Translations under genes and position numbers: made by a program | Notes under the pieces: model-generated | Database searches by the model: none | The model's input: only the letters and a program-made list of their open reading frames with translations | Told to the model about the DNA's origin: nothing | Shown here: positions 20,965 through 25,151 of the stretch, piece by piece | Numbering within the stretch: position 1 is the stretch's first letter | How the letters are laid out: the number at the start of each line of letters is the position of its first letter | Assembly: GCF_002257665.1 (NCBI RefSeq) | Contig: NZ_MQWB01000001.1 | Span: 249,482 to 281,883, forward strand | Origin: Rubricoccus marinus | Lineage (GTDB): Bacteria > Bacteroidota > Rhodothermia > Rhodothermales > Rubricoccaceae | Length of the DNA: 32,402 bases | Direction: 5' to 3'

Positions 20965-22647
20965 ATGCCCCTCGATCCCCTCGCCGGACAGCCCGTCCCC
21001 GCCGACCGCCTGCCGGACATCCCGGCGCTCGTCGACGCCTACACCTCTCGCACGCCCGACCCCGAGAATCCGGCCGAGCGGGTGACGTTCGGCACGAGCG
21101 GGCACCGCGGGTCGTCGCTGGATGGGCGGTTCAACGAGGCGCACATCCTGGCGACGAGCCAGGCGCTGGCGGAGTACCGCCGCGAGGCCGGAATCGACGG
21201 GCCGCTGTACATCGGTATCGACACGCACGCGCTCTCGCGGCCCGCGTTCGAGACGGCGATGGAGGTGTTCGCGGCCAACGGCGTGACGGTCGTGATTCAG
21301 GAGGGCGACGGGTTCACGCCCACGCCTGCGGTCTCACACGCCATCCTCGCGCACAACGGGGCCTCTGGCGGAACAGCCTCTGGCGCCAGAGGCGCGGGGT
21401 CAGGACCGGCTGACGGAGTGGTCATCACGCCGAGCCACAACCCGCCCCAGGACGGCGGCTTCAAGTACAACCCGCCGACGGGCGGACCGGCGGGCGGCGA
21501 CATCACGGGCCCGGTGCAGAACCGCGCGAACGAACTCCTGCGCGGCGGGCTACGCGAAGTGAAACGCGTGCCTCTGGCGAAGGCTCTCGGAGCCGACACC
21601 ACGCACACCGCCGACTTCGTGCGGCCCTACGTGGACGGCCTCGCGGACGTGCTGGACATGGACGCGATCCGCGCGAGTGGCCTCAAGATCGGCGTGGACC
21701 CGATGGGCGGCGCGGCGGTGGCCTACTGGGCGCCCATCGCGGAGACGTACGGGCTGAACATCGAGGTGGTCAACGAGGTCGTAGACCCGGCCTTCGGATT
21801 TATGCGGCTGGACCGCGACGGCAAGATCCGGATGGACTGCTCGTCGCCCTACGCGATGGCCGGCCTCGTGGAACTGCGCGACCGCTTCGACATCGCGTTC
21901 GGCAACGACCCGGATGCGGACCGCCACGGCATCGTCGCGCCATCCTCGGGCCTGATGAACCCGAACCACTACCTCGCGGTCGCCATCGAGTACCTGTTCA
22001 CGCACCGACCGGGCTGGTCCGAGGCCGCAGCGGTGGGCAAGACGCTCGTCTCGTCCAGCATGATCGACCGCGTCGTCGCGAGCCTGGGGCGGCCTCTGGC
22101 GGAGGTGCCGGTCGGCTTCAAGTGGTTCGTGGACGGGTTGCTCTCGGGCAGCTACGGCTTCGGCGGGGAGGAGAGCGCGGGCGCCTCGTTCCTGCGCAAA
22201 GACGGCACGGTCTGGACGACCGACAAGGACGGCCTGCTCCTCGGGCTTCTCGGTGCCGAGATCACCGCCGTCACGGGCCGCGATCCGGGCGAGCGCTACG
22301 CCTCGCTCGAAGAACGCTTCGGCTCCCCCGTCTACGCCCGCATCGACGCGCCCGCCTCGCGCGAGCAGAAGGCGGTTCTCGCGGACCTCTCGCCAGAGGC
22401 CGTCGACGCTGAAACGCTCGCGGGCGACGCGGTCACGGCGAAGCTCACGCGCGCGCCGGGCAACAGCGCGCCCATCGGCGGCCTCAAGGTCACGACCGCG
22501 AACGGGTGGTTCGCCGCGCGCCCGTCCGGGACGGAGGACGTGTACAAGATCTACGCGGAGAGCTTCCGCGGGGCCGACCACCTCGCGCGGCTCCAGGCGG
22601 AGGCGCAAGAGGTGGTGCAGGGCGCGTTCGCGAAGGCGGGGGTGTAG
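20965..22647 (+). CDS. pgm: Alpha-D-phosphoglucomutase
   Basis: This 560-residue cytosolic enzyme interconverts glucose-1-phosphate and glucose-6-phosphate. It aligns along its whole length with my recollection of E. coli Pgm (546 residues): [19 protein letters not shown] near 38, catalytic loop TPSHNPP with phospho-Ser157, Mg-binding DPDADRHG, sugar-binding [12 protein letters not shown] and phosphate-binding [12 protein letters not shown] near the C-terminus. Compared with E. coli there is one clear extra piece of about 11 residues just before the catalytic loop (residues ~133-147, bases 21361-21405). It reads Gly/Ala/Ser/Arg-rich and is encoded by three copies of the 9-bp repeat. Catalytic Ser is 157 here versus 146 in E. 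coli, which matches the insertion size. ATG 20965 gives the expected N-terminus ([11 protein letters not shown]). Confidence 0.96.
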
Positions 22648-22678: not shown

Positions 22679-22706
22679 GCGCCAGAGGCGGCCTCCGACG
22701 TTCCCC

Positions 22707-22896
22707 GTAGGGGCGTATCGCATACGCCCTCCAGGATGCCACGGCCTCTGGCGACACCGCCCATGCGTTCGGCCCTGACGCCAGAGGCTTGGTACGGGAT
22801 ACGTTCCCGAGTGCCGCGGCCTCTGGCGGCTCGGTGTCGCACCAGAGGCCCCTGGACGGGGCGCCGGGGTGGGGGGCGTATGCGATACGCCCCTAC
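22707..22896 (+). repeat. Left ~190-bp inverted repeat with REP ends, flanking the RAYT
   Basis: Both ends are REP palindromes: GGGCGTATCGCATACGCCC (22710-22728) and its reverse form at 22874-22892. Between them lie landmarks CAGGATGCC, four copies of the 9-bp word, GGCTCGGTGTCGC and GGGGCGCCGGGGTGGGG. The same landmarks occur in the same order on the other strand at 23442-23633. It ends 3 bp before the RAYT stop codon. Confidence 0.85.
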
Positions 22897-22898
22897 GG

Positions 22899-23423
22899 TT
22901 ACATGCGGTGTCCGTCGCGGCGCGTGGCGTCGAGGCCGTGCCACCGCGAAGGGTTCTCGGCGATGTACTGGCGGACGTGGTCGGCCTCGCGCTCCGTGCG
23001 GACGACGCGGTCGAAGAACCCCCGTTGCCAGACCGGCCCGACCTCGCGGCCTTCGCGATCCCAGACGGCGCGCGTGACGGCGCCCTTGTAGCCTCGCACG
23101 ATCGACGCCGCATTCGCCGACGGCGACCGGAATCTCCGCTCGGACCCTTGCTCGCCAGAGGCCTCTGGCGGGAGGAGGGCGAACAACAGGTGGACGTGGT
23201 CAGGCATCACCACGAAGGCGTCCAGGATGCACGTCGGCCGAACGTCCTCGGTGCGGATCCATTCCGCGTGCGCGATGTCGCCGAGTGGTGAGCGGAGCAT
23301 TTCACCCTCCTCCACATCCCCGAACAGCCTCTGGCGCCGGTGCGTGCAGATCGTGATGAAGTAGAGGCCGTCTGCATAATCGTGCGTTCGAAGGCGGACA
23401 GATCGGCGGTCTCGAAACGGCAT
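22899..23423 (-). CDS. REP-associated tyrosine transposase (RAYT, Y1_Tnp)
   Basis: This 174-residue protein belongs to the Y1/HUH transposases. The N-terminus RRSVRLRTHDYADGLYFITICTHRRQRLFG is the RAYT signature (shown in part). The HUH motif is MPDHVHLLF with His76 and His78. The catalytic tyrosine is Tyr153 in DHVRQYIAENPSRW, after WQRGFFDRVVR. Such enzymes nick and rejoin single-stranded DNA at REP sequences and are thought to spread or maintain them. Here REP palindromes flank the gene within 3 bp (stop side) and 19 bp (start side). A Pro-Pro-Glu-Ala-Ser-Gly stretch (85-90) comes from the 9-bp repeat, so that repeat has also entered this gene. ATG 23423 is chosen because it begins just before the conserved RRS. 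All catalytic residues are intact, so it could be active. Confidence 0.92.
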   Translation of the reverse strand: MPFRDRRSVRLRTHDYADGLYFITICTHRRQRLFGDVEEGEMLRSPLGDIAHAEWIRTEDVRPTCILDAFVVMPDHVHLLFALLPPEASGEQGSERRFRSPSANAASIVRGYKGAVTRAVWDREGREVGPVWQRGFFDRVVRTEREADHVRQYIAENPSRWHGLDATRRDGHRM

Positions 23424-23441
23424 GCCGTAGGGTACAAACCC

Positions 23442-23633
23442 GTAGGGGCGTATCGCATACGCCCCCCACCTCGGCGCCCCGCCCAGGGGCCTCTGGCGCA
23501 ACACCGAGCCGCCAGAGGCCGCGCATGCGGAAACGCATTACATACGGGCCTCTGGCGCTGGACCGGACGGCGCGGTTGGAGTCGCCAGAGGCTGCGGCAT
23601 CCTGAGGGAGGGGCGTATGCGATACGCCCCTAC
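23442..23633 (-). repeat. Right ~190-bp inverted repeat with REP ends
   Basis: Inverted copy of 22707-22896. The REP palindromes are at 23445-23463 and 23611-23629, with CAGGATGCC, GGCTCGGTGTTGC and GGGGCGCCGAGGTGGGG landmarks on the minus strand. The ends are nearly identical; the middle has diverged. This and the following 105 bp account for the 315-bp gene-free stretch before the M28 peptidase. Confidence 0.85.
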
Positions 23634-23678
23634 GGTTACATGTGTCCGTCGCGGAGTGTGGCGTCGAGATGGTGCAAC
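23634..23678 (-). pseudogene. Remnant of a RAYT 3' end
   Basis: Right after the right-hand REP the sequence GGTTACATG-TGTCCGTCGCGG...TGGCGTCGAG repeats the last ~43 bp of the RAYT gene with a 3-bp deletion and a few substitutions. On the minus strand it reads HHLDATLRDGHM-stop, against WHGLDATRRDGHRM-stop in the intact gene. It marks a second, lost RAYT copy or an incomplete transposition product. Confidence 0.7.
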
Positions 23679-23686
23679 CAGCCCGC

Positions 23687-23738: not shown

Positions 23739-25151
23739 ATGATCCGCGCCCTCCTCTTCTCCCTTCTGCTCGCCTCTGGCGCAGCGCCCGCCCTCGCCCA
23801 GTCGTCCGCATGGCCAGACTCGCTCGTGGGCGGCTCCGTCCCGCCAGAGGCCGTGCCGCTGCTGCACGAGATCGCTGGGGGTGTAAGCGCCGACCGCATC
23901 GAGGCCGACATCCGCACGCTCGCGGGCTTCGGCACGCGGCACACGCTGAGCGACACGGTCAGCGCGACGCGCGGCATCGGCGCGGCGCGGCGGTGGTACC
24001 GGGCGCAGCTGGAGCAGATCTCCACCGACTGCGGCGGGTGCCTGGAGATTATCGAGGTGCGCGAGACGGTCAGCGGCGAGCGGCGCATCCCGGAGCCGGT
24101 CGAGGTGGTGAGCATCCTCGCGATCCAGCGCGGCACGAGTGACCCCAATCGGATGGTGATGATGTCCGGCGACATCGACTCCCGCGCCTCCGACGCGCTG
24201 GACGGAATCAGCGACGCGCCAGGGGCCAACGACAACGCCAGCGGCCTCGCGGGCACGCTCGAAGCGGCGCGCATCCTCACGCAGTACACCTTCCCCGGCA
24301 GCATCGTCTACGCCGGGCTGAGCGGCGAGGAGCAAGGCCTCTTCGGCGGCAAGCACGTCGCGGACATGGCGCGCGCCCGCAACTGGAACATCCAAGCCGT
24401 GCTCAACAACGACATGATCGGCAACTCGTGCGGCATCGACGGGGTGTGCGACAACACGAGCGCCCGCGTCTTCTCCGAGGGCACGCGCGCCGTCGAGACC
24501 GAGCGCGAGGGCACGATGCGGCGCTATACCGGCGGTGAGGTGGACAGCCCGTCGCGCAACGTGGCCCGCTACGTGGACACGATGGCCGACGAGTACATCC
24601 GCAACCTGGACATCATGATGATCTACCGCAACGACCGCTTCGGCCGCGGCGGCCACCACACGCCGTTCGCCGAGGCGGGCTTCCCCGGCGTGCGCATCAT
24701 GGAGACCCACGAGCACTACGACCGCCAGCACCAGGACCTCCGCAACGAAGACGGCCGCCACTACGGCGACACAGTCGAATACGTCGACTACGACTACGCC
24801 GCCAAGCTGACCGCGCTCAACGCCGTGAGCCTCGCCGGCATGGCGGGCGCGCCCCGTCCGCCTCTGGCGGTGAGCGTGAGCGGCGCCGTGCAGCCCAGCA
24901 CGACACTCGCCTGGGACCGGCCTCTGGCGGAGACCAACCCGCAGCACGCGGGCGTCCGGATCTGGTGGCGCCTGACCACAGATTCGCAGTGGGAGAAGAG
25001 CGTCTTCGTGCCCGACAACGGCGAGGCGCGTCAGAGCTACACGCTGGAGAACATCGTGATCGACAACTACTTCTTCGGCGTCTCCAGCGTCGCGCGCGAT
25101 GGCAGCGAGAGCCCGGTCGTCTTCCCCGGCCCGGCAGGCGCGTTCGAGTAG
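23739..25151 (+). CDS. Secreted M28-family metallopeptidase
   Basis: This 470-residue protein has a signal peptide (MIRALLFSLLLASGAAPALAQ). The M28 core spans ~50-375, with di-zinc site landmarks DAPGANDNASGLAGTLEAARIL, the catalytic SGEEQGLFGGKHVA, LNNDMIGN and a C-terminal METHEHYDRQHQD. In most M28 enzymes the first zinc ligand is the His of a GHxDS motif. Here the motif reads SGDIDSR, so that His is Asp; I believe a related subgroup shares this but cannot check. Residues ~380-470 form a fibronectin-like or other beta domain (LAWDRPLAETNPQHAGVRIWW...YFFGVSSVARDG). It is likely an exported aminopeptidase-like enzyme. ATG 23739 starts exactly at the signal peptide. 9-bp repeats fall in the signal-peptide region and in the linker before the C-terminal domain. 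Confidence 0.9.
   Translation: MIRALLFSLLLASGAAPALAQSSAWPDSLVGGSVPPEAVPLLHEIAGGVSADRIEADIRTLAGFGTRHTLSDTVSATRGIGAARRWYRAQLEQISTDCGGCLEIIEVRETVSGERRIPEPVEVVSILAIQRGTSDPNRMVMMSGDIDSRASDALDGISDAPGANDNASGLAGTLEAARILTQYTFPGSIVYAGLSGEEQGLFGGKHVADMARARNWNIQAVLNNDMIGNSCGIDGVCDNTSARVFSEGTRAVETEREGTMRRYTGGEVDSPSRNVARYVDTMADEYIRNLDIMMIYRNDRFGRGGHHTPFAEAGFPGVRIMETHEHYDRQHQDLRNEDGRHYGDTVEYVDYDYAAKLTALNAVSLAGMAGAPRPPLAVSVSGAVQPSTTLAWDRPLAETNPQHAGVRIWWRLTTDSQWEKSVFVPDNGEARQSYTLENIVIDNYFFGVSSVARDGSESPVVFPGPAGAFE

Follow-up and report, generated by a model that had tools for sequence, protein, structure and literature searches.

A RAYT gene between two mutually inverted pairs of its cognate GTAG-tagged REP hairpins in Rubricoccus marinus

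The window analysed here is a 32,402-nt stretch of the Rubricoccus marinus genome (contig NZ_MQWB01000001.1, positions 249,482 to 281,883), in which a RAYT gene (TnpAREP) lies between inverted pairs of its cognate GTAG-REPs. It is very probable that this locus is a REPtron, whose protein, by putative cutting at REPs, scatters REPs and not its own gene, and whose REP pairs were duplicated locally. We observed the gene and its motifs, the tagged hairpins, the pairing of the RAYT with a cognate REP, its single copy, the dispersal of REPs in the genome and an empty site in a congener.

The gene and its hairpins

The coordinates of the features are summarized in Table 1. The four REPs that the initial annotation had placed at 22710, 22874, 23445 and 23611 were all found, each start being at most one base off. 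Two copies of GGGCGTATCGCATACGCCC lie on the + strand, and two are its reverse complement GGGCGTATGCGATACGCCC. When up to 3 mismatches were allowed, 8 matches were obtained, both strands of 4 places being counted, whereas dinucleotide shuffles give an expectation of 0.01 and a maximum of 1. Each hairpin carries at its foot an unpaired GTAG tag, facing outward from the pair, and this tag, unremarked in the initial annotation, is the diagnostic feature. With its tag, the REP of the window RAYT reads GTAGGGGCGTATCGCATACGCCC; it folds as GTAG plus GGGCGTAT-CGC-ATACGCCC, i.e. an 8-bp stem closed by a 3-nt loop. The two pairs do form units of ~190 bp in opposite orientation, as had been described: their interiors score 163 when aligned inverted, versus 49 in direct orientation, with a maximum of 45 in 300 shuffles. 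The unit halves adjoining the gene are 95% complementary over 84 nt, and the outer halves are clearly weaker. The association of the RAYT with its own REPs was correctly recognized, with an inverted GTAG-REP pair on either side of the intact gene.

Table 1. Features of the RAYT locus, in window coordinates.
Feature	Position	Strand	Remarks
Downstream REP pair (BIME)	22705..22898		two opposed GTAG-REPs, tags outward, ~140-nt spacer
REP 1, distal	22707..22729	+	GTAG 22707-22710 (+), hairpin 22711-22729; then CAGGATGC extension common to dispersed REPs
REP 2, gene-proximal	22874..22896	-	hairpin 22874-22892, GTAG 22893-22896 (-); tag 2 nt past the RAYT stop codon
RAYT / TnpAREP gene	22899..23423	-	intact ORF, 174 aa; HuH H76-V-H78, Y153, N157 (Y+4), W132-Q133, R142
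Word palindrome CGCCAGAGGCCTCTGGCG	23153..23170		in the HuH-to-Y loop of the RAYT; related RAYTs have an in-frame REP at this place
Upstream REP pair (BIME)	23440..23635		inverted copy of 22705-22898
REP 3, gene-proximal	23442..23464	+	GTAG 23442-23445 (+), hairpin 23446-23464; separated by 18 nt from the RAYT start codon, on its upstream side
REP 4, distal	23611..23633	-	hairpin 23611-23629, GTAG 23630-23633 (-); then CAGGATGC extension common to dispersed REPs
Degenerate duplicate of RAYT 3' end	23636..23680	-	matches 22899-22945; joins REP 4 as the true 3' end joins REP 2

The open reading frame between the units is complete, in agreement with the first description. Its product matches the Pfam domain Y1_Tnp, and scores just under the cutoff of the NCBIfam model REP_Tyr_transpos (E-value 2e-21, 76.4 bits for a cutoff of 80). 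In an alignment of 41 homologues from many phyla, H76/H78, Y153 and N157 (Y+4) are invariant, and W132, Q133 and R142 are invariant or nearly so. The HuH, catalytic tyrosine, metal-ligand and GTAG-recognition (W94, Q95, R104) positions of TnpAREP have been published (PMC6006769); by position, W132, Q133 and R142 would correspond to the last three. The AlphaFold model (pLDDT 85) has as its best PDB match 4er8 (E-value 7.6e-8), ahead of IS200/IS605 transposases. This entry, a complex of E. coli TnpAREP with a REP hairpin (22% identity in the structure alignment), was also the sole hit of a sequence-profile search against the PDB.

Between the HuH strand and helix 105-124, the model contains a low-confidence loop (90-104), and the alignment columns there are variable. 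A REP was sought inside the window gene (RAYT-1), and the best match, 13/23, was no better than in codon shuffles. The paralogue RAYT-3 contains a degenerate in-gene REP matching at 21/25, a score reached by 0/200 codon shuffles. The palindrome of the GCCTCTGGCG word (see below) in the loop of the window gene was considered as a stand-in for an in-gene REP and dropped, since the word occurs every ~312 bp and is also present elsewhere in all three RAYTs of the genome.

Repeats across the genome and in relatives

Compared with its own genome, the 196-nt unit matched itself and its inverted partner, and all other matches were single REPs or partial matches of at most ~60 nt. RAYT-free copies of the 190-bp unit, which the initial annotation had suggested looking for, did not turn up: searches of this genome with the unit and with the RAYT revealed none, and brought up the element itself only once. 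There are 13 exact GTAG-REPs genome-wide, four at the locus and 9 elsewhere; with ~6 further sites carrying one or two mismatches, ~15 REPs are dispersed, for a total of about 19. A CAGGATG extension, 2-7 nt past the hairpin, is found at several dispersed copies and at the two distal REPs, and is absent from the two gene-proximal ones. Because this extension is common to dispersed and distal REPs, the dispersed element looks like a distal REP with a short tail. What is dispersed is a single REP, at most with an extension of ~25-50 nt. At ~19 copies in this genome, REPs are few, and their ongoing spread is no more than a possibility. At two REP loci (L182, C1:232519, and L192, C1:2373107), similarity of the flanks extends over more than 100 nt (GGGATGAGG runs, GGCGCCGGCCGTTTTGTTCCGCCAGAGGCC), so that some REPs are part of larger intergenic modules that have been duplicated.

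The window RAYT itself is single copy. Two paralogues, at C1:3848423 and C1:889425, are 55 and 58% identical to it at the protein level, and each has one REP type of its own, GTAGGGGCGAGGCTCGCCTCGCCC or GTAGGGACACACCGCTGGTGTGTCC, with about 10 and 22 copies genome-wide. Both show the same layout, an inverted pair of their own GTAG-REP upstream and one copy downstream. The genome therefore holds three RAYTs and three different REPs, one RAYT per REP type, and the three genes form a single clade with a broken RAYT of the congener (support 99). RAYT-free inverted REP pairs, with spacers of 24-138 nt, lie near the second paralogue. The upstream REP pair of RAYT-2 (L029:1268-1411) encloses an 18-bp tandem array, GGAACGGGCGGTGGACCC, in ~6 copies. 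With three sister RAYTs, each matched to a different GTAG hairpin, this genome is a clean case, and offers good material for tests of the joint evolution of RAYT and REP specificity.

In the congener (G001), the phosphoglucomutase and M28 peptidase genes are 119 nt apart, versus 1091 nt here, the flanking phosphoglucomutases sharing 88% amino acid identity. This gap, contained in one contig, has neither RAYT nor REP, and the window REP was not found anywhere in the G001 genome (300 contigs, 91% complete). The G001 region orthologous to the dispersed REP C1:2415936 has no REP (best match 15/23); for another dispersed REP, C1:3468575, synteny with the congener is one-sided only. Because G001 lacks both at orthologous sites, members of the genus differ in this REPtron and in its REPs. 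Far from being fixed, the REPtron was recently gained or lost at this spot. Gain in the window lineage appears likelier than loss of every copy, even if, with one fragmented congener, loss could explain the absence. Occupied versus empty sites between congeners date this gain or loss to within a genus. The initial annotation had seen in the locus a mobile unit, an idea that inverted units both unique in the genome and fixed in all relatives would contradict. The units are unique, but not fixed, the congener site being empty. The mobile-unit reading is only partly supported: single REPs are dispersed, and the locus is variable, but a RAYT moving whole with its inverted pairs finds no second copy in this genome to speak for it.

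Among the homologous RAYT loci with enough flanking sequence, GTAG-type hairpins were present within 700 nt in 48/68, and a copy of the cognate REP inside the gene in 23/68, mostly at nt 250-380. Such in-gene REPs were set aside as a new discovery, as they are already described for TnpAREP subclass 2.4. Some RAYT loci sit among many REP hairpins, such as L092 and L108 (Kapabacteria) and L073 and L121 (Chloroflexi), with arrays of ~10 or more copies at L092, L073 and L121, which at the two Chloroflexi loci flank the gene on either side. In another relative, G007, a RAYT (C4:155406-155957) has lost the catalytic tyrosine (RSVAENP), and has an internal stop and a REP-like peptide (RGVLQYAPT) in the loop; this gene is decaying. 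A literature search for palindromic repeats in Rubrivirga returned nothing.

A second repeat, the word GCCTCTGGCG, is present 139 times in the window, versus 0.47 expected, and the 4.43-Mb genome as a whole contains 14,176 copies, one every 312 bp, versus 61 of the mirror-image control. The congener has 99 copies (control 101), and in the other relatives searched the frequency of the word is background or close to it. This HIP1-like word has exploded in a single species, and is more striking than the RAYT. A variant word, CCCGCTGGCG, is in excess in G001 (1,291, control 118) and G007 (1,377, control 151), and at background in the genome of the window; close relatives seem to favour different words, built around a common CTGGCG core. 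Relative to congener orthologues (21361-22400 and 23772-23851), words were gained by small insertions (e.g. at 21361, 21376 and 23772), and also by substitution in a similar existing word (21570, 22092 and 22391). The spacers of the two units contain 3 and 4 exact copies, as announced by the initial annotation, which is only a mild local excess, because ~8% of 195-nt windows hold at least 3 words (1.6% hold at least 4). Word sites mostly correspond between the two units, and therefore predate the duplication. Of the two layered repeat systems inferred earlier, what stands is the presence of the word in the spacers; the layering itself reflects a word that saturates the whole genome, and the spacer words carry no information on a link between the word and REP systems.

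History of the locus and alternative readings

A remnant of 43 nt, matching the RAYT 3' end (score 54, versus at most 29 in shuffles), follows REP 4 on the side away from the gene, with its register to the REP preserved, and no other REP locus inspected carries a RAYT 3' tail. Sequence comparison suggests that this remnant is the mark of a local duplication. Since it lies beyond REP 4 and is unique among the inspected loci, the right-hand unit would be a copied RAYT 3' end plus REP pair, with the spacer reversed. The 3' end of the gene would have been duplicated locally together with its REP pair, after which the spacer between the 25-nt inverted REPs may have been flipped, or gene-converted. 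A local origin of the 190-nt inverted pairs and of the 43-nt remnant is most likely, the inversion after duplication being read from one locus.

As for the action of the protein, we relied on the E. coli and Stenotrophomonas enzymes. Those of E. coli and S. maltophilia bind single-stranded GTAG-hairpins and cut them at CT, and the resulting 5' tyrosine link can then be joined anew to other ends (PMC8266576). By analogy, in a single-stranded state such as the lagging-strand template, the window protein would bind a GTAG-tagged hairpin, Y153 would cut near it to form a 5'-phosphotyrosine link, and the ends would be rejoined. Single REPs or short REP-plus-extension pieces would spread in this way, and not the whole gene unit. 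The window protein may therefore spread REPs as its E. coli and S. maltophilia counterparts do.

An intact transposase bracketed by long inverted repeats also evokes an autonomous transposon, with the ~190-nt units as TIRs and the RAYT moving the whole ~930-nt element; the empty congener site would fit, one occupied locus possibly equalling one recent insertion. We hold this to be very unlikely, as the genome has neither another copy of the element nor a pair of its ends without RAYT, the outer unit halves are less conserved, the RAYT 3' remnant falls outside the right unit, the paralogous RAYTs lack such long ends, and published REPtrons apparently do not move as units. About as slim are the chances of unit-wise movement via the inverted double-REP arms, in contrast to known REPtrons, with a spacer able to flip, i.e. 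of a RAYT transposon caught soon after its arrival. A classical IS200/IS605 insertion sequence is extremely unlikely: the Y1_Tnp domain and the presence of IS200/IS605 folds among the structural matches point that way, but the gene is single copy with GTAG-REPs in inverted pairs on both sides, the best structural match is TnpAREP and not IS608 or ISDra2, and the NCBIfam IS200 model gives 29.3 bits for a cutoff of 55.

The REP hairpins might instead act mainly as RNA elements (terminators, mRNA stability or attenuation), shielding the RAYT from read-through or damping it, with a RAYT otherwise idle. Di Nocera et al. proposed RNA roles for such repeats (PMC3733652), and the position of REP 2, starting 2 nt past the stop codon, as well as the stop codon of the paralogue at L029, which overlaps a REP tag, would suit such roles. 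However, an RNA terminator gives no reason for conserved GTAG tags, and these tags, together with the pairing of each of the three paralogous RAYTs with a REP sequence of its own, indicate DNA recognition. As a main function, we find the RNA role unlikely, and it is compatible with the REPtron explanation, the two not being exclusive.

Relation to known systems

TnpAREP subclass 2.4 is marked by REPs carried in frame within the gene, between HuH and Y, a trait that is common there and not obligatory (Quentin et al. 2018, PMC6006769). Given the 23/68 loci with an in-gene REP and the degenerate copy in RAYT-3, subclass 2.4 is the closest kind, and the locus is most like it by features rather than by tree placement. 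Shared are the HuH-Y protein with its variable segment from HuH to Y (beta3 to alphaC), REPs flanking the gene, long canonical GTAG-REPs whose stem base consists of three G-C pairs, and relatives of the window RAYT with in-frame in-gene REPs at the same place. Unlike subclass 2.4, the window copy has no in-gene REP and has the GCCTCTGGCG palindrome in that loop, and its dimers are inverted copies of each other, one of them bordering a RAYT 3' remnant. The spacers of ~140 nt are also longer than the usual 20-100 bp of REP dimers (PMC3733652).

With E. coli TnpAREP (4er8) and its BIMEs, the locus has in common the fold, the HuH, Y and N residues, the GTAG tag and inverted REP pairs, but its REP has a perfect 8-bp stem, free of the bulge that the E. 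coli enzyme needs, REP copies per genome are few, and identity in the structure alignment is 22%. The S. maltophilia REPtron Sm (group 3; PMC8266576) has the same REP geometry, 23 nt comprising GTAG, an 8-bp perfect palindrome and a 3-nt loop, and an S. maltophilia REP of like geometry was cleaved experimentally (PMC8266576). It differs in RAYT subclass, as named in the papers, and in the dynamic proliferation of Sm REPs. TIRtrons, with their TIRYT (PMC3733652), also place a tyrosine transposase between long inverted repeats; their TIRs, however, are mostly unrelated to GTAG repeats, whereas each arm here is a GTAG-REP dimer. The nearest TIRtron-like case is given by the ppf607-type double repeats of P. 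putida, built on degenerate GTAG units (PMC3733652). A REPIN population was discarded, as there is no many-copy REP-spacer-REP unit, the full unit being found at the locus only. REP dimers, REPtrons and REPtron-like long inverted repeats have all been described already (PMC3733652). The locus is an ordinary, well-formed REPtron, which by itself leaves the known picture of REPs unchanged.
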